A DNA stretch of 64,000 nt, taken from Gammaproteobacteria bacterium. Its GTDB lineage: Bacteria > Pseudomonadota > Gammaproteobacteria > Eutrophobiales > Eutrophobiaceae. The stretch is taken from the NCBI GenBank assembly GCA_004297165.1, contig SCUJ01000006.1, positions 1,302,464 through 1,366,463 on the forward strand, written 5' to 3'. The translations under genes were made by a program, and so were the position numbers. Numbering within the stretch: the first letter of the stretch is position 1; every line of letters starts with the position of its first letter. Below the pieces are notes generated by a model. The model saw only the letters and a list, made by a program, of their open reading frames with translations. It ran no database searches and was not told the DNA's origin. This document shows, piece after piece, positions 5,945 through 44,105 of this stretch.

Positions 5945-6364
5945 TTAATCCACAAACCTGTCCCGCAACTCCTGCGGGACCACATCCGCCCGCATCCCCT
6001 TCGGATGAGTCGGGTCGATCACCGCCCAGACGCGGCGCTCGAAGCCTTCGAGCGCGAGGCTACCATCCTTGTGGATGACCTTGTGGCGAACGAGAAAGGT
6101 CTTGCCGGCCCACTCCTCCACCGTCGTGTGCAACTCCACCTTCTCTCCGTGCCGGCAGGGCGTGAAGTACTTCGCGCCGGATTCCACCAGCGGGTAGCCG
6201 ATGACGCCATAGGTCTTCTTCACGTATTCGTAGGAAAATCCGTTCTCGGTGAAAAGGCGCTCGGTGGCCTGATCGAACCAGATGTAATACTGCGGATAGA
6301 ACATGATCCCCGCGGGGTCGCAATAGATCCAGTCGACGTTGCGCTCGAAGATAATCGTTTTCAC
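5945..6364 (-). CDS. Hotdog-fold acyl-CoA thioesterase, 4-hydroxybenzoyl-CoA thioesterase (4HBT) family
   Basis: 139 residues from a GTG start at 6364, preceded by a strong GGAGGAGG site. The segment YCDPAGIMFYPQYYIWFDQA (residues 14-33) is the signature of the 4HBT/YbgC group, with the catalytic Asp at 16. Later strands (FLVRHKVIHKDGSLALEGFERRVW cut into hotdog beta strands) fit the family, and length is normal. It should hydrolyse a cytoplasmic acyl- or aroyl-CoA. It lies alone, divergent from the trpB-like gene, so context does not reveal the substrate. Confidence 0.85.
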   Translation of the reverse strand: MKTIIFERNVDWIYCDPAGIMFYPQYYIWFDQATERLFTENGFSYEYVKKTYGVIGYPLVESGAKYFTPCRHGEKVELHTTVEEWAGKTFLVRHKVIHKDGSLALEGFERRVWAVIDPTHPKGMRADVVPQELRDRFVD

Positions 6365-6567
6365 AGTGCCTCCTCCAAATATTGTCGTTTGTATCGCCCG
6401 CAGTATCGCATGCCAGCAGGCAGTTCAAAAACGTCGCAAGCGCAGAACGAACCGGAAAAGGACTGGCGAGGCCGGGGTAAAATACGACATAATGCCCGGT
6501 ATAAAGCGGGAAAATAACCCGCGTTGTAATCTCAGCCTGGCAAGAAAATCAACACTAGAGCAAACCC

Positions 6568-7926
6568 ATGACAAACTCCCGCATCGTGCTGGATCAATCC
6601 CGGATCCCGACCCACTGGTATAACGTCATCGCCGACATGCCGAATCCCCCCGCGCCCGTGCTGGCGCCGGACGGCAAGCCAATCACGCCGGATCAACTCA
6701 TGATGATCTTCCCCGAGTCCCTCATCATGCAGGAGGTCTCCGGGGAACGCTGGATCCCGATCCCGGAGCCGGTCCGCGAGATCTATAAATTATGGCGGCC
6801 CACGCCGCTGCAACGGGCCTATCGCCTGGAGCAGGCGCTCGGCACGCCCGCGCGGATCTGGTACAAGAACGAAAGCGTGAGCCCCGCCGGTTCGCACAAA
6901 CCCAACTCCGCGGTGCCGCAGGCCTACTACAACAAGCAGGCCGGCATCAAGCGGCTCAGCACCGAGACCGGGGCCGGTCAATGGGGCTCCGCCATCTCGC
7001 TCGCGGGCCAGATGTTCGGCCTGGAGGTCATGGTCTACATGGTCAGGATCTCCTACGATCAAAAACCCTTCCGCCGGTCGATGATGCAGACTTGGGGGGC
7101 GCGGGTGCTGCCGAGCCCGACCAACACCACGCGCTCCGGCAGCAAGATCCTGGCGGCCGATCCGGAATCGCCGGGCTCGCTCGGGATCGCGATCTCGGAG
7201 GCCGTGGAAGTCGCCGCCGAAAATCCCGACACCAATTACACCCTGGGCTCCGTGCTGAATCACGTCCTCCTGCACCAGACGGTGATCGGCCTCGAGGCCA
7301 AGGAGCAGATGCAGATCGCGGGCGATTATCCCGACGTGATCTTCGCCCCCTGCGGCGGCGGCTCCAATTTCGGCGGGATCGCCTTCCCGTTCCTCGCGGA
7401 CAAGGCCGCCGGCAAGAACATCCGGCTGGTTGCGGTGGAGCCCACCTCCTGCCCCACCCTGACCCGCGGGCATTACGCCTACGACTTCGGCGACTCGGTG
7501 GGACTCACGCCCATGCTGCGCATGTACACCCTGGGGCATGATTTCGTTCCGCCCGGCATCCACGCCGGCGGTCTGCGTTATCACGGCGATTCCGCGCTCG
7601 TCTCGCAGCTCTACCACGAGAAGATCATCGAGGCGGTGGCCGTGGATCAGATCGCGACCTTCGAGGCCGGTGTCCTGTTCGCGAAGACGGAAGGGATCAT
7701 CCCGGCCCCGGAATCCAATCACGCGATCCGCGCCTGCATCGACGAGGCCCTGCGCTGCAAGGCGTCCGGCGAACCCAAATGCCTGTTGTTCAACCTTTCG
7801 GGCCACGGCCACTTCGACATGGCCGCTTACGACCGCTTCTTCCGCGGCGAGCTGGAGGATTATGCCTATCCCCAGGAGGCGATCGAGGCGGCCCTGGAAC
7901 ACCTGCCGAAAGTGGCCTTAGGTTAA
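6568..7926 (+). CDS. trpB: TrpB2-type tryptophan synthase beta-like PLP enzyme
   Basis: 452 residues, the length of the TrpB2 subgroup rather than classical TrpB (about 400). The PLP Schiff-base lysine is Lys111 in AGSHKPNSA. The catalytic ETGAGQWG motif follows, then the phosphate-binding CGGGSNFGG, then PAPESNHA near the C-terminus. By family it condenses indole with serine. No trpA, trpC or trpF is visible nearby; TrpB2 proteins are known to occur without TrpA and to work poorly with it, so this may salvage free indole or act on another substrate. The upstream 200 bases divergent from the thioesterase gene show only a small hairpin near 6506-6522; the ribosome site is weak. Confidence 0.9.
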   Translation: MTNSRIVLDQSRIPTHWYNVIADMPNPPAPVLAPDGKPITPDQLMMIFPESLIMQEVSGERWIPIPEPVREIYKLWRPTPLQRAYRLEQALGTPARIWYKNESVSPAGSHKPNSAVPQAYYNKQAGIKRLSTETGAGQWGSAISLAGQMFGLEVMVYMVRISYDQKPFRRSMMQTWGARVLPSPTNTTRSGSKILAADPESPGSLGIAISEAVEVAAENPDTNYTLGSVLNHVLLHQTVIGLEAKEQMQIAGDYPDVIFAPCGGGSNFGGIAFPFLADKAAGKNIRLVAVEPTSCPTLTRGHYAYDFGDSVGLTPMLRMYTLGHDFVPPGIHAGGLRYHGDSALVSQLYHEKIIEAVAVDQIATFEAGVLFAKTEGIIPAPESNHAIRACIDEALRCKASGEPKCLLFNLSGHGHFDMAAYDRFFRGELEDYAYPQEAIEAALEHLPKVALG

Positions 7927-21754: not shown

Positions 21755-22216
21755 AGACTCCCGCCAAGACACCAAGAGATGTAGGGGTTAGGGGTTAGGG
21801 GTTAGGGGTTAGGGTATAGGGGTTAGGGAATTGGATTTAGTAGGGGCGATCCTTGTGATCGCCCTTTTATCACGGGCGATAAACCCGTTTCGGGATTGTG
21901 GGCGATACCGAATTGGATTAATAACCTCTAATCCCTATCCCCTATCCCCTACATCTCTTGGCGTGCTTCGCGCCTTTGCAAATGAAAATAACGTCCCCTC
22001 CCCCTCGACGGGGGAGGGACAGGGAGAGGGTGTGCAATTTCTTCACCTCCTCTCCCCCAACCCCTCTCCCGCAAGGGGAGAGGGGGATTCGCGAATCAGA
22101 GAAAAGGGCGATCACAAGGATCGCCCCTACGTCGGATTTGGACAGATCGCGTAGGGTGGGCATGTCTTCCATGCCCACGCGGGTGAGAAAAGGGCGATCA
22201 CAAGGATCGCCCCTAC
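21755..22216. repeat. Intergenic repeat cluster between two signalling loci
   Basis: The 659-base gap 21562-22220 has no gene. It contains a CGCCAAGACACCAAGAG motif near 21762, TAGGGGT heptamers (21780-21830), GATC-type dyads at 21840-21864, 22106-22130 and 22192-22216, CCCTCTCCC-type hairpins (21995-22092), and a GTAGGGTGGGCA/TGCCCACGC dyad near 22152-22182. Bases 21562-21754 show nothing I can name, apart from being upstream of the membrane cyclase gene. Confidence 0.75.
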
Positions 22217-33278: not shown

Positions 33279-34928
33279 ATGATCAGTCCGCCAGGTGAGA
33301 GTCCGGTCGTACTCTACACCAGGGACCTCAGTCCCGAGCGGGGTTGCCTTTCCTTGTGCGGGAATGTCGAGGACCTGACCGGCTATCCGGCCGCGGCCTT
33401 CCTCGACGATCCAAAATTCTGGAACCAGCGCATCCACCCCAACGACAAACCGCAGGCGCTCGACGCCCTGCGCCTGTGCCTGCGCGTAGGCTCCGCCGCG
33501 ATCGATTACCGCTTCCTGCGCCAGGACGGCGTGTATGTCTGGATTCACGACTCCTGCTCGTTAATCAGCAAAGACAACCTGCCCCGCGGGATCGCCGGGA
33601 CCTGGATCGACATCACCCGGCAAAAATACGCCGAACGGCTCACCAGCGAGGACCCCGGAGAAAAGGTGACGGGCCTCGTGAACCGCAAGACCTTCGAGCG
33701 CTCACTCGCCGACCTCATCGCCGATGCCGTTAATTCCAACGACGAACACGTGTTGTGCTACATCGATCTGGATCAGTTCCGGGTCATCAACAACACCTGC
33801 GGCCACACGGCCGGCGACGAACTGCTGCGTCAGCTCGGCTGGTATCTCCAGGGGAAACTCAGGGTCAGGGACACCGTGGCCTATTTAGGAGGGGACGAGT
33901 TCGGCATCCTGCTGGAATCCTGCGTCATCCGCCAGGATCACCGCGTCTTCGCCGGGATTCGCCAGGCCCTCTCCGAGTTCGAATTCGAACTGGCCGGCAG
34001 GAAGATCTCGATCACCGCCAGCATCGGGGTGGTCCCGATCAACAAGGAGAGCGGCTCCCCGGCGCGGGTGCTCGGCATGGCCGACATCGCCTGCTACGCC
34101 GCGAAGGAGCAAGGCCGCGACCGCGTCCACTTCTATACCGAGGAGGACGAGGATTCGGAGCCCCGGATCGAGATGTTCTGGGTGGATCGCATCAATCAGG
34201 CCATGCAGGAGGACCGTTTCTTTCTGTACAGCCAGCCGATCGTCCCCCTGAACGGCGCCGCCGGCCTGGGGGGACACCACGAGCTGCTCCTTCGCATGAA
34301 GGACGAGGCGGGGAAGCTCGTGCCGCCCGGACTCTTTCTGCCCGCGGCGGAACGCTATCACCTGGCCGGACGCATCGACCAGTGGGTGATCCGCACCGCG
34401 CTTTCCTGGCTGGACGCCTATACCGATATGATCGACCCCGCCCAGCGCATCGGGATCAACATCTCCGGCCAGTCGCTCGCCAACGATGACCTGCTGGAAT
34501 TCGTCCTCGGCGAACTGACGCACAAGGGGATCGCCCCGGAGCGGATCTATTTCGAGATCACCGAGACCGCGGCGGTGGCCAATTTCAAGCACGCCATCCG
34601 CTTCATCAACGGCCTGCGGGACAGAGGCTGTCATTTCGCCCTGGACGATTTCGGCAGCGGCGTCTCCTCTTTCGCCTACCTCAAGATGCTGCCGGTGGAT
34701 TACCTCAAGATCGACGGGGCCTTCGTCAAGGAGATCGCCAACAGCCCGGTCGATTACGCCATGGTCAAGGCCATCAACGACGTGGGCAGGACCATGGGCA
34801 AGCAGACCATCGCCGAGTTCGTCGAGAACGATGCCATCGTCGCGATGCTCAAGGAGATCGGCGTCGACTTCGCCCAAGGCTACGGGATCGGCAAACCCCG
34901 TCCCCTGAATGAATTCTTCAACCCCTAA
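33279..34928 (+). CDS. PAS-GGDEF-EAL protein
   Basis: 549 residues from the ATG at 33279. A PAS domain (10-115) ends in WIDITRQKYAE. The GGDEF domain (130-285) has an intact GGDEF motif and an RxxD inhibitory site (RVRD) five residues before it. In the EAL domain (295-545) the signature is ELL (HELLLRM) rather than EAL, but EITE, DDFGSG and LKIDG are present. The cyclase half is probably active; phosphodiesterase activity is uncertain. Its last 20 bases overlap the start of the next kinase gene, so it is coupled to the downstream hybrid kinases. Confidence 0.87.
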   Translation: MISPPGESPVVLYTRDLSPERGCLSLCGNVEDLTGYPAAAFLDDPKFWNQRIHPNDKPQALDALRLCLRVGSAAIDYRFLRQDGVYVWIHDSCSLISKDNLPRGIAGTWIDITRQKYAERLTSEDPGEKVTGLVNRKTFERSLADLIADAVNSNDEHVLCYIDLDQFRVINNTCGHTAGDELLRQLGWYLQGKLRVRDTVAYLGGDEFGILLESCVIRQDHRVFAGIRQALSEFEFELAGRKISITASIGVVPINKESGSPARVLGMADIACYAAKEQGRDRVHFYTEEDEDSEPRIEMFWVDRINQAMQEDRFFLYSQPIVPLNGAAGLGGHHELLLRMKDEAGKLVPPGLFLPAAERYHLAGRIDQWVIRTALSWLDAYTDMIDPAQRIGINISGQSLANDDLLEFVLGELTHKGIAPERIYFEITETAAVANFKHAIRFINGLRDRGCHFALDDFGSGVSSFAYLKMLPVDYLKIDGAFVKEIANSPVDYAMVKAINDVGRTMGKQTIAEFVENDAIVAMLKEIGVDFAQGYGIGKPRPLNEFFNP

Positions 34929-37821
34929 AATTAATTTCTTAACGCGGCACGGCCTGACCCTGAAGCTCACGGCCATGGTCACCCTGCTCGTGATCCTCAC
35001 CGCGCTGGTGGTCGGTTATTTCTATGGCCGGCGCTTCTACGATCGCCTGGTCGAACGGGAACTCACGCAGCTCAATCAAGATGTCGAGTATGCGAGGTTG
35101 AGCCTGCAAGCGGCGATCGACGATCTCGAGAGCGATGTCCTGTTTCTCGCCGCTTCCGGCACGGCGCAGCGGCTGGCCCGCGCCACCGCGGCCGGCGGCA
35201 TCGACCCCGTGCTGGGGCTGGACCGATCCTGGATCCACCGGCAACTGCAAGGGCAGATGCTGGACCTCGCGGCCTCCGAACCGACTTACCAGCAAATCCG
35301 CCTGATCGACGGAGCCGGACTGGGCCGCGAGATCATCCGCGTGGAGCGCGACGAGGCCAGCGGCGCCGTTTTGCTGGCGCCGGATCCACTGCTCCAGGCG
35401 AAGGGCGACCGGCCCTATGTCAAGGAGACGCTCAAGCTCCCCGCGGGCGAGGTCTTTATCTCGGACCTGGACATCAACCAGGAGCGCCCCGGCCTCAAGG
35501 CCCCGCCGGTCCCCGTGCTGCGGGCGGCCACGCCGATCCGCAGCGGGGCGCAGCCGCCCTTCGGGGTCCTGGTCATCAACCGGGACATGCGGCCCATGTT
35601 CGCCGAACTTGCCCGCCTGGTCGAGTCGTCCGGCGAGGTCTATCTCATCGGCGGACAAACCACCTTCGACCTGCATGCCCTGCATGAGGCGCCCGAGGGT
35701 TATGTCTGGTTTCCCGCCGAGATCGAAACCGATTTCCCGCTGCTCGGCGCGGCCCTTGCCCGGGCCACGGCGCCGTCGGGGACCTTCAAGGAATCGATCA
35801 ACGACAGCGAATACGTCATCGCCTACACGACCGTGCTCCCGAATGCGGAAAATCCGGCACAGTCCATCAGGATCGTCCTCGCCGCGCCCTACACGGCCGT
35901 GATCGAGGGCGCCCAGGGGATCCTGCACACCGGGATCCTCATCAGCCTCTTCATGGTGCCCGCCATCGTCTTCTTCAGCCTGTACACCTTTAACAAAATG
36001 ACCCTCCCGCTGCGGCGCATGAAGGAGGCGGTCGAGGCCTATGCCTCCGGACGCGGGGATGTCCAGTTCCCCGTCAACGCCGGCAACGAGTTCGGCGTCC
36101 TCGCCCAGGCCTTCCGCGACATGCAAGGCCGGATCGACCAGCAGACCGCGGAGTTGCGCAATTACGCCGGGCAGCTTCGCGAGGCGCAGCGGCTGGCCAA
36201 GCTGGGCTTCTGGGAGAGCGATATGAAACATCACAAATACTACTGGTCGGAGGAGATCTATACGATCCTCGGCCTCGACCCGGCCACCTATGCCCCGCAA
36301 CCGGACTGGATCCTGAAGATCGTGCATCCGGAGGATCTTGTGGCGGTCAAGGCAACCATCAAGGCAAGTTTCCACAGCCAGAGCTTCATACCTATCGAAC
36401 ATCGCATCATCCGTCCGGATGGCGGGATCCGGCACGTCCTCGTCCAGGGCGAGGCCAAGGAAACGGAGGCCAACCGCGTCACCTGGGCGCTGGGAACGAT
36501 GATGGACATCACCGAGCGCAAGCTGGCTGAACTCGATCTCCAGCGGGCCAAGGAGGCGGCGGAGCTGGCGAACGAGACCAAGTCCCGCTTCCTGGCCAAC
36601 ATGAGCCACGAGTTGCGCACCCCCTTGAACGCCATCATCGGCTACTCCGAGATGCTGCTCGAAGACGCCGAACTGGCCGGAGACCCAACCGCTGTCGCCG
36701 ATCTCCGCAAGATCATCGGCGCCGGGCGCCATCTCCTCGCGGTGATCAGCGATATCCTCGATCTCTCCAAGATCGAGGCCGGCAAGATGGACCTGGTGCT
36801 GGAGTCCTTCGCGGTCGAGGATCTGATTGGCGAGATCGTCGCGGCCTTGAAGCCCCAGATCCAGAAGAAAGGGATTCGACTGCGCGTGGCGGTCGACCCC
36901 ACGTTGACAGACATCACCACGGACCCCGTGCGCCTGCGCCAGTGCCTTCTGAACCTCATGAGCAACGCCGTCAAGTTCACAGAAGACGGCGAGATCGCCC
37001 TCACGGTCGAACGCGATCCGGCGGCCGATCGGGAATGGCTGATCTTCCGGGTCAGCGATACCGGCATCGGTATGAGTCAGGATCAAGTCGCCCGGATCTT
37101 CGATGCCTTCAGCCAGGCGGATGTTCATATCGCTGCGAGATACGGTGGGACCGGTCTCGGGCTCGCCATCGTGCGCGACCTCTGCGCGCTCATGGGCGGC
37201 GAGATTGGCATCGAGAGCGCGCCCGGCAAGGGCAGCGCCTTCACGCTGCGCCTGCCCCGGAACGGCGGACCTAATGAGCCTCTGAATAAACTCGAATCCG
37301 TTCGCCCTGAGCTTGTCGAAGGGCAACGAATTCGAACGGAATCGACGAGTATTCCATTCGTGCTTCGACAGGCTCAGCACGAACGGGAACTTGCGCAGGG
37401 CTTCACTAACAGCGCGCCCAAGGCAACGCCCCGCCGCAACGAGGGTCTGCCTATAGCCCTGATCATCGACGACGAAGCGCCGGCCCGCGAGATCCTCTCG
37501 CATTACCTCATCAAATCCGGTCTGGTGGCAGTGACGGCCAGTAACGGCCGGGAGGGCCTCGCTCAGGCGCGGGAACTGCGGCCGCGCGTGATCCTCCTCG
37601 ATATCATCATGCCGGAGATGGACGGCTGGGAGGTGCTCGCGAAACTCAAGGCGGACCCGGCGCTCGCCCACATCCCGGTGATCATCTGCACCGTGCTGGA
37701 GGATCGGGAGAACAGCCTGGCCCTCGGGGCGGATGAATTCCTGCCCAAACCGATCAAATACGAACGCCTACAGGCCGCCCTGGCGCGGCTGCTACGCCAG
37801 TCACTGGAGATGCGCCCGTGA
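34909..37821 (+). CDS. Membrane hybrid histidine kinase with extracytoplasmic sensor and C-terminal receiver
   Basis: 970 residues. A first membrane helix (about 20-42) and a second (about 342-362) bracket a 300-residue periplasmic sensor of double-Cache-like character. HAMP (365-418), a PAS domain (425-545), the H-box NMSHELRTPLNAIIGYSEM (near 565) and an HATPase (NAVKFT, DTGIGM, GTGLGL) follow, then a receiver (845-965, LLDIIMPEMDG). Residues about 797-826, between HATPase and receiver, are encoded by an inserted palindromic repeat and look unlike the rest of the protein. Kinase motifs are intact. It overlaps the preceding PAS-GGDEF-EAL gene by 20 bases and the next kinase gene by 4. Confidence 0.9.
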   Translation: MNSSTPKINFLTRHGLTLKLTAMVTLLVILTALVVGYFYGRRFYDRLVERELTQLNQDVEYARLSLQAAIDDLESDVLFLAASGTAQRLARATAAGGIDPVLGLDRSWIHRQLQGQMLDLAASEPTYQQIRLIDGAGLGREIIRVERDEASGAVLLAPDPLLQAKGDRPYVKETLKLPAGEVFISDLDINQERPGLKAPPVPVLRAATPIRSGAQPPFGVLVINRDMRPMFAELARLVESSGEVYLIGGQTTFDLHALHEAPEGYVWFPAEIETDFPLLGAALARATAPSGTFKESINDSEYVIAYTTVLPNAENPAQSIRIVLAAPYTAVIEGAQGILHTGILISLFMVPAIVFFSLYTFNKMTLPLRRMKEAVEAYASGRGDVQFPVNAGNEFGVLAQAFRDMQGRIDQQTAELRNYAGQLREAQRLAKLGFWESDMKHHKYYWSEEIYTILGLDPATYAPQPDWILKIVHPEDLVAVKATIKASFHSQSFIPIEHRIIRPDGGIRHVLVQGEAKETEANRVTWALGTMMDITERKLAELDLQRAKEAAELANETKSRFLANMSHELRTPLNAIIGYSEMLLEDAELAGDPTAVADLRKIIGAGRHLLAVISDILDLSKIEAGKMDLVLESFAVEDLIGEIVAALKPQIQKKGIRLRVAVDPTLTDITTDPVRLRQCLLNLMSNAVKFTEDGEIALTVERDPAADREWLIFRVSDTGIGMSQDQVARIFDAFSQADVHIAARYGGTGLGLAIVRDLCALMGGEIGIESAPGKGSAFTLRLPRNGGPNEPLNKLESVRPELVEGQRIRTESTSIPFVLRQAQHERELAQGFTNSAPKATPRRNEGLPIALIIDDEAPAREILSHYLIKSGLVAVTASNGREGLAQARELRPRVILLDIIMPEMDGWEVLAKLKADPALAHIPVIICTVLEDRENSLALGADEFLPKPIKYERLQAALARLLRQSLEMRP
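37298..37386. repeat. Palindromic repeat inserted in frame in a kinase gene
   Basis: Two facing arms, CCGTTCGCCCTGAGCTTG plus TCGAAGGGC at 37298-37324 and GTGCTTCGACAGGCTCAG plus CACGAACGG at 37360-37386, flank a 35-base centre. Arms are inverted copies with few mismatches. The 30 codons it contributes keep the reading frame (peptide SVRPELVEG and VLRQAQHER). This dyad is of a type usually found between genes. Confidence 0.85.
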
Positions 37822-41812: not shown

Positions 41813-41822
41813 AAATTACATA

Positions 41823-41888
41823 GAGCGATCACAAGGATCGCCCCTACATCATAATGACACGGCCATAATCGCCGTGTTTTCCTGGCGC
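41823..41888. repeat. GATC-type dyad plus TGACAC-GTGTTTTC dyad
   Basis: A GATC-type dyad (41823-41847) is followed by TGACACGG, CCATAATCG, CCGTGTTTTCCTGGCG (41855-41887). The second element recurs at 52035, 54421 and 54484. Both lie between the convergent kinase and S9-like genes. Confidence 0.75.
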
Positions 41889-41908: not shown

Positions 41909-43861
41909 TCAGAAATTCGCGTCGAGGAATTCCCCTATCCTGGCCAGCAGATCGATGCGGTAACGCTCCGTCCAGATGGTGTGTTCGGCGTGCTCGTATT
42001 CGGCGGTCTCCACCTTCACGCCGCCGCTCTTCAGGGCCAGGGCGAGATCCTCGAATTGCGCATAAGGCACGGTGTAATCCTTCGCCGCCTGGATCAGCAG
42101 GACCGGGGCCTTGATCGCCCTGGCGCGCTCCTCCGGCGATCCGAACTGCGCCCTGGCCGCGTCGGGACCGCCGGCAAAGCTCAGGAATCTTCGGCCGCTG
42201 ACCATGTTGCGCCCCATCATGCCCAGCTTCTCCGGATTGCCCGGACCGCCGATGCTGACGGTGCATTTATACATCCCGGGGTCCGCGCTACCGCTCATGA
42301 GCGCGGCATAACCGCCGAAGCCCCAACCGACGATACAAACCCCGGCCGGGTCCGCGATCTTCTGATCGATCAGATATTTCGCGCCGGCGCCGATATCGCC
42401 GCTCGCCCGTTCCCAATCACGGAATGCGCCATTGCCTTCCCAGTCCTTGCCGAAGCCCATGGACCCGCGGTAATTCGCCTGGAGCACGGCATAACCGCTC
42501 GCGTTCAGGAACTGCACCAGAAAATCGTGGCCATTGATCCGGCGGTTGCTCGCCGAATCGTAGGGCAGGATCACCGCGGGCAGCCCCGTCCGCGCCGCGC
42601 CTGGAGGCAGGCTCAGATAACCGGGGATTTGGGCGCCGTCCTGTCCCGCGTAAGTGACGGTCTTCACCTCCGCGGGGGGATGTTCCTTCAGGCGCGACCA
42701 GGCCGTGCCGATCTTCGCCAGCTCGTTCTGCTCGCTGTCGAACCGGTAATAACTGCCGGCGTCATTTTTCGTATCGATGCTCACGAGATAATAACGGCCG
42801 CTCCAGTCCTCATCGACGATAACGATCCGATCGTCGGGGTACAGCAACGTCAGGCGATCGTAAACGTCCTTCACCTTCGGGTCGAAATACGCCTGATACT
42901 CGCGCTCCAGGTTGTAGGTCACGCCGACGATGCGATTGTATTTGCCCATCCGGACAGGCTGCCCGACATCCGCCTCGGGATGGCCGAAGACCAGGCGGGT
43001 CGTTGCCCCGGCGGCGAGATTCATGGCGAACAGGGCATAGCGTCCGTTATTGATGTCGGTGTAAAGCAGCTCGTCGAGGTTCGCCCCGAAACCGAGCGGC
43101 ATGAAGCGATCGTCGCCGTCCCGCGCGGCGGCCCGGTGGATCTCCTCCCATTTCCCCTCCTCGCCGGATCGGGCATGCCACGCATTCTCGGTCTGGCTGG
43201 AACTCATGTATGCACGGGCGACGCCGTGACCGTCCGTAATCCAGCTCCGCGCCCCCTTCTTGCGTTTCACGAAGGTCTTGGGATCGCCGCCCTTGGTGAT
43301 GTCGAGGCGGGCGAGCCCCGCGCCATCCATCGCCGATTCGAGGATCGCCACGTGGTCCTTGTCGTCCGGCAACCAGTCGATGACGAAGTCCTGCGCACCC
43401 ATCATGCCAAACGGATTGCCGGCGAATACCTGCATGCCGCTGCCGTCGAGGTTGACCGCCGACACCTGGTTTCGCGCGTAATACTTGCCCTGTCCCTGTT
43501 GCTGTGGCGGCCCGAACGTCGGCCGTCCCTGGACCTTGTCGATCGAGCTGATGCCGCACAGAAAGCGTTCGGTGCTGGCCCAACGGCACCATTTAAGTTC
43601 GACCTCGTCCTTCTTGCCGTAGGCGATCACGCCGCTCACCTTCTTGGAGTCGAAATCGAGCGTCCGCAGAAACTCGAAACCATCGGGATGGGTCTGGAGG
43701 AAGGCCATCAGCGACCCGTCCGGCGAAAGCCGGGGCGACTGGATGTCCGGATGCGAGCCATAGGCCACGGCCAGCGGGCTGGTCTTGAGATCGGCCTCCG
43801 CGGCGGCGGCCGCGGTTGTCAGCATCAGGAAAAAGCAAGCGATCAGACTGGAACGTAACAT
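41909..43861 (-). CDS. S9 prolyl-oligopeptidase-like protein lacking the catalytic serine
   Basis: 650 residues from the ATG at 43861 with a strong GGGGGGAG site. A signal peptide ends TTAAAAA. Residues about 30-380 are beta-propeller, 400-650 an alpha/beta hydrolase. The nucleophile elbow reads GWGFGGY where the family has GWSxGG, so Ser is Gly514 (codon GGC at 42322-42320). The catalytic Asp (AAKDYTVPY, Asp595) and His (EHAEHTIW, His624 or His627) remain. It is exported and probably cannot hydrolyse peptides by the normal mechanism; it may be a binding protein. The reading frame is intact, so this is not ordinary decay. It lies alone between repeats. Confidence 0.88.
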   Translation of the reverse strand: MLRSSLIACFFLMLTTAAAAAEADLKTSPLAVAYGSHPDIQSPRLSPDGSLMAFLQTHPDGFEFLRTLDFDSKKVSGVIAYGKKDEVELKWCRWASTERFLCGISSIDKVQGRPTFGPPQQQGQGKYYARNQVSAVNLDGSGMQVFAGNPFGMMGAQDFVIDWLPDDKDHVAILESAMDGAGLARLDITKGGDPKTFVKRKKGARSWITDGHGVARAYMSSSQTENAWHARSGEEGKWEEIHRAAARDGDDRFMPLGFGANLDELLYTDINNGRYALFAMNLAAGATTRLVFGHPEADVGQPVRMGKYNRIVGVTYNLEREYQAYFDPKVKDVYDRLTLLYPDDRIVIVDEDWSGRYYLVSIDTKNDAGSYYRFDSEQNELAKIGTAWSRLKEHPPAEVKTVTYAGQDGAQIPGYLSLPPGAARTGLPAVILPYDSASNRRINGHDFLVQFLNASGYAVLQANYRGSMGFGKDWEGNGAFRDWERASGDIGAGAKYLIDQKIADPAGVCIVGWGFGGYAALMSGSADPGMYKCTVSIGGPGNPEKLGMMGRNMVSGRRFLSFAGGPDAARAQFGSPEERARAIKAPVLLIQAAKDYTVPYAQFEDLALALKSGGVKVETAEYEHAEHTIWTERYRIDLLARIGEFLDANF

Positions 43862-43974: not shown

Positions 43975-44105
43975 TGTCCCTCACCCTCTCCCGTCTAGGG
44001 AGAGGGGATCCTGTAGACAATCCTGCCTTCCCCTGATGGATGAGGTGAGGTACGGATAAACAATACTCCCTCCCCCCGCGCGGGGGAGGGTTGGGGAGAG
44101 GGGGA
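43975..44105. repeat. CCCTCTCCC-type hairpins downstream of ccmI
   Basis: The segment holds CCCTCACCCTCTCCCG/GGGAGAGGGG (43978-44008) and a stronger dyad CCCTCCCCC, CGCGCG, GGGGAGGG (44068-44090). They follow the end of the ccm operon on the minus strand and could end its transcription, although there is no U-run. The rest of 43862-44127 has nothing I can name. Confidence 0.6.

Follow-up and report, generated by a model that had tools for sequence, protein, structure and literature searches.

Human DPP10 (DPPY) is a dead S9B peptidase turned channel subunit: it is anchored in the membrane as part of an ion channel, and its elbow reads GKGYGG. DPP4 carries a Tyr where DPP10 has Asp568. In PMC4350108, the catalytic Ser of DPP10 is described as replaced by Gly with the triad Asp and His kept, Asp568 and Tyr652 are named at the oxyanion positions, and putting the Ser back is said not to have regained activity. 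PMC4873792 states that the inactivity of mammalian DPP6 and DPP10 does not come simply from the Ser position, and that fly DPP10, which is DPP4-like around the Ser, is a peptidase. Our search of open-licence papers found none on a bacterial S9 pseudopeptidase. Among solved structures, the best sequence match to the protein described below is 2qzp_A (51.9 bits), one of the Aeropyrum pernix acylaminoacyl peptidases (1ve6/2qzp/3o4h), which belong to S9C; the aligned acylaminoacyl peptidase differs in having Ser, in GYSYGGY, together with HGG, and identity over the fold is about 16%.

The window, which is the whole 64,000-nucleotide stretch of DNA that was analysed, contains a gene whose product, P0001, is, as judged from its sequence, a bacterial S9 homologue of the non-peptidase sort, which animals are known to have in DPP6 and DPP10. 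Its features are as follows:

41909..43861, minus strand: gene of the putative S9 pseudopeptidase P0001, 650 amino acids, ATG at 43861, stop included (translation, PF00326, AF2 model)
43796..43861, minus strand: probable cleavable signal peptide, about residues 1-22 (judged by eye from the translation)
42551..42562, minus strand: oxyanion motif HGGP changed to Y434-D-S-A437 (alignment, codons, column counts)
42308..42328, minus strand: nucleophile elbow G512-W-G514-F515-G-G-Y518 (sequence, alignment, codons)
42077..42079, minus strand: Asp595, the triad Asp, kept (alignment to the conserved Asp)
41981..41983, minus strand: His627, the triad His, kept (alignment to the conserved His)

The first-pass annotation had called an exported protein of S9 fold that lacked its nucleophile and had a frame intact over 650 residues. 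The fold and the frame hold up: PF00326 (Peptidase_S9) matches residues 449-649 at 99.9 bits against a curated cut-off of 22.6, which makes P0001 an S9 homologue, and translation of 41909-43861 gives 650 codons free of stops and frameshifts, with a purine run, GGGGGGAG, preceding the ATG. The loss of the nucleophile also stands, and export stands as apparent only; where proteins of the DPP6/DPP10 type carry a type II membrane anchor, the N-terminus of P0001 looks by eye like a cleavable signal. Going by the Pfam match and nothing else, the label 'S9 peptidase' would mislead for this protein. Two narrower assignments were tried and rejected, namely lasso peptide isopeptidase (NF033523, 35.6 bits against a curated NCBIfam score of 400) and Dpp5 (NF053518, 22.6 bits against 900), and no lasso genes were recognised by eye among the neighbouring reading frames viewed.

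An AF2 model of P0001 (mean pLDDT 82.8, pTM 0.85, N-terminal part strand-rich) aligns with solved S9 peptidases over residues 27-650, nearly its full length, and the predicted architecture is that of an N-terminal beta-propeller followed by a C-terminal alpha/beta-hydrolase. The best VIA-align row for the model is the acylaminoacyl peptidase 3o4h_A (Z 32.9, 536 residues, 4.3 A rmsd), and the first Foldseek row is the S9 carboxypeptidase 8wt1_D. Within the altered oxyanion loop, residues 437-439 have pLDDT below 50, which we considered as a sign of disorder and set aside: the model of L047, a Ser-bearing relative folded with the same 27 sequences, is equally weak at 421-423, in and just past its own HGGP (419-422), and the low score of the P0001 loop is thus uninformative by itself.

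Read on the minus strand, the elbow codons ATC GTC GGT TGG GGC TTC GGC GGT TAT give IVGWGFGGY, and in the assembled sequence Gly514 (GGC at 42320-42322) stands where S9 peptidases have the catalytic Ser. This motif and its GGC codon had been noticed in the first reading, which put them at 42310-42330, within 2 bases of where the motif lies, and which was also right that Asp and His are kept. Its suggestion that a single base change would explain the site is too small, and we reject it because the HGGP loop, whose loss it overlooked, and the residue following the nucleophile position have changed as well. The codons are TAC GAT TCG GCG (YDSA) and GGC TTC (Gly-Phe, F515 in place of Tyr) in P0001, and CAT GGC GGA CCG (HGGP) and AGT TAT (Ser-Tyr) in an intact paralogue, L019. 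Given both changes, restoring the Ser alone would not be expected to yield a normal site. Measured against an active S9 peptidase, P0001 thus lacks the Ser of GxSxGG and the HGGP of the acylaminoacyl peptidase type, but has the Asp and the His. The exchange of Ser for Gly with Asp and His retained is what PMC4350108 describes for human DPP10, and, as in DPP6 and DPP10, the Ser is replaced and the fold kept according to the alignment and the AF2 model. We regard the parallel as close in anatomy, likeness of role lying outside it; P0001 differs in its GWGFGGY elbow, its apparent cleavable signal peptide (by eye) and its bacterial origin.

We aligned 126 S9 sequences from the loci gathered here, a sample skewed toward relatives of P0001 and L032 through taking only the best loci per search. 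A letter is present at the nucleophile column in 117 of them, P0001 included: 113 have Ser, three Gly and one Asn. HGGP is present in 113/113 Ser-bearing relatives and altered in 4/4 Ser-less sequences, among them P0001, and wherever a Ser-bearing row has letters at the triad columns (112 rows), these are D and H. The residue next to the nucleophile position on its C-terminal side is Phe in all three Gly rows versus 8 of the 113 Ser rows; the Asn row has Tyr. At the 45 columns shared by at least 90% of Ser-bearing rows (12 at the catalytic site and 33 others), P0001 departs at 10, comprising 6/12 at the site and 4/33 elsewhere (Fisher p 0.013 for the site excess); an earlier count against 65 rows had given 10 of 47. 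For comparison, among 105 Ser-bearing rows (8 of the 113 being left out as incomplete) the maximum number of on-site breaks is 1, and off-site breaks have a median of 1 and number at least four in 11 rows, which puts the four of P0001 towards the high end of what such rows show. Since the breaks pile up at the site and the off-site tally is not unusual, it appears that the loss was targeted at catalysis, with the fold still constrained. The pattern favours a folded, retained protein, and leaves the loss undated.

By its sequence P0001 is very likely a pseudopeptidase, and the two separate losses at its catalytic site probably mark a non-cutting relative rather than a one-letter accident. With the nucleophile and HGGP both lost, and Asp, His, the frame and most other conserved columns retained, it would be unable to form an acyl-enzyme and hence would not cleave peptides. 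We judge that it is probably being retained rather than decaying, with somewhat better than even confidence. Less surely, it may persist as a non-catalytic protein, periplasmic or secreted, whose propeller-hydrolase cleft could bind peptide, or which could pair with an active S9 paralogue and tune it, on the model of DPP10 with its channel partner; that it was kept as a binder is plausible. Taken as a whole, the reading to which we incline by a little is of an apparently exported pseudopeptidase of S9 fold that diverged from an intact S9 paralogue, cleaves nothing and is kept as a non-catalytic binder or partner.

The intact paralogue, L019, lies in the same genome (G000:C11:59518-61401), is 44% identical to P0001 over residues 7-648 and of the same length class, and matches PF00326 at 144.9 bits; it differs in having GWSYGGY and HGGP, and in adjoining two tannase/feruloyl esterase genes. 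A dead bacterial S9 protein and an intact paralogue in one genome offer a simple system for asking what a dead S9 does. The two esterase genes (PF07519; L110, 177-1772 and 1805-3376) come after the paralogue and hint at a catabolic setting. HGGP is also found in the relatives L007/L048 (42% identical to P0001) and L047 (39%).

As to whether homologues share the Ser to Gly change, which the first-pass annotation had raised, we found no such orthologue in the family, class and phylum genomes or the genome collection, and the Gly of two relatives (L064 and L032) counts in the tree as separate losses. Ten of 53 family genomes match at 1e-20, and only the window's genome and G017 hold the subfamily at 42% identity or above; the genus has one other genome, 76% complete, which gave no match to P0001. 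Elsewhere, the highest identity among the matches listed is 32% in 369 class genomes and 34% in 398 phylum genomes. Scanning the genome collection with the single P0001 sequence found no relative, and with the alignment as query it found at least 30 loci, L048 and L047 being the nearest. Plasmid records matched in 37 cases, all below 60% identity (the best 10 of 37 listed), and phage records in one. That one, MT838850.1, is entered as 'Bacteriophage sp.' from human faeces, is 8.6 kb long, carries no annotation and may be misfiled bacterial DNA; its S9 relative (6172-7740) covers about 80% of the query at 25% identity. A 68-row tree clusters P0001, L019 and L048 at 100/99. The pairing of P0001 with L048 has support of 97/46 on a short branch, and the branching order inside the trio is therefore unsure; the L048 contig stops ahead of its elbow and provides no nucleophile letter.

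Upstream of P0001 on the same strand is what we read as the ccm cluster for cytochrome c maturation, with ccmI as its last gene. Pfam bears out ccmI, and ccmF, ccmG and ccmH are presumed from their sequences. Three histidine kinase genes on the opposite strand head toward the 3' end of P0001. The signals flanking the gene are consensus matches:

44068..44090, minus strand: terminator-like stem-loop between ccmI and P0001
43940..43968, minus strand: sigma-70-like promoter match upstream of P0001 (2 in the region against 0.6 expected from shuffling)
41822..41844, minus strand: terminator-like stem-loop after P0001 (6 in the region against 1.8 expected)

We compared 12 stretches from relatives downstream of ccmF (from the ccmF start in G030). 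Nine were informative, having ccmI plus about 0.9 kb or more past it; of the others, L097 stops before ccmI, L098 is too short and L099 ends about 0.75 kb past ccmI. None of the nine had a match to P0001 beyond ccmI at 1e-4. These results, together with the promoter- and terminator-like signals, lead us to read the P0001 gene as what looks like a separate unit inserted beside ccm in this lineage, outside the ccm machinery. Two minor features were seen nearby. Between ccmI and the S9 gene, positions 43984-44102 contain the nine-base words CCCTCTCCC/GGGAGAGGG, which turn up again near 22022-22084, 25021 and 63043. At 37300-37385 (plus strand) a REP-like inverted repeat with arms TGAGCTTGTCGAAG and CTTCGACAGGCTCA lies in frame inside a hybrid histidine kinase gene at 34909-37821; it falls in the linker that joins HATPase_c, which runs to aa 784, to the receiver domain, which starts at aa 851.

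The alternative that survives best is that P0001 is a gene in early decay, its site lost as unneeded and its stops and deletions yet to come, which we consider possible but rather unlikely. Such a gene could well be confined to one genome, as P0001 is among the 53 of the family, and occupy a spot common to none of the nine informative relatives. Its branch, at 0.78 changes per site, is longer than the 0.47 of the paralogue (the partial L048 sequence has 0.48), and synonymous sites leave room for recent relaxation: P0001 and the paralogue give dN 0.55 and dS 1.50 (NG86), and over six pairs dS is saturated, at 1.5-2.8 with 37-48% identity at fourfold sites, so that dN/dS speaks for the bulk of the branch only and not for the time since the Ser was lost. 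Against decay, the changes cluster at the catalytic site, with off-site columns kept about as in some active relatives. Nor does decay sit easily with the absence of stops and frameshifts, since in a random-mutation control, a simple model, 4% of 300 copies of the 650-codon frame stayed stop-free at 5% divergence and fewer than 1% at 10%, or with a normal third-base composition (GC3 0.808; seven neighbouring genes span 0.79-0.88).

It is improbable that P0001 is still an active hydrolase, working through another nucleophile such as Ser436 or Asp435 of the altered loop, or through changed chemistry. Tyr434 falls at the position of the DPP4 oxyanion Tyr and could serve as an oxyanion residue, so some oxyanion function might remain alongside the retained Asp595 and His627; the elbow GWGFGGY itself has neither Ser nor Cys. 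The altered loop replaces the oxyanion glycines that HGGP holds according to PMC3360023, and human DPP10, which likewise has Gly for Ser, is inactive with or without its Ser restored (PMC4350108). A sequencing or assembly error is highly improbable, for although Ser (AGC) and Gly (GGC) are one base apart, five more catalytic-site residues differ, four of which belong to the HGGP codons some 230 bases off, the frame is intact, and the contig holding the locus is 1.78 Mb long in a genome of 13 contigs.

Three further relatives found here lack the Ser. L064 (Aquabacterium humicola) and L032 (G417) have Gly and L121 (G431) has Asn. Like P0001, all three combine loss of the Ser with damage to HGGP (QGGL, HDGP and HANP, respectively), and in the two Gly rows Phe adjoins the lost nucleophile. 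L032 differs from P0001 in having lost Asp and His too, and L121 in having lost His and in adjoining an intact S9. The tree requires three separate losses for P0001, L032 and L064, L121 being outside it and L032, on the longest branch (1.8), being unsure in placement. We consider it doubtful that bacterial S9 peptidases repeatedly spawn exported pseudopeptidase paralogues which lose nucleophile and oxyanion motif jointly (with Gly for Ser and Phe for Tyr in the three Gly rows) and bind or regulate an intact S9 of the same cell as its partners, which would be a bacterial parallel to DPP6 and DPP10. On G431:C60, L121 (GRNYAG, HANP, His lost) is next to the intact S9 L131 (GGSYGG) on the same strand. 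In A. humicola RJY3, the L064 gene (4782-6887) has QGGL and ASGFGAH instead of HGGP and GGSYGGY, and its nearest row in the tree, L055 from A. terrae, is intact.
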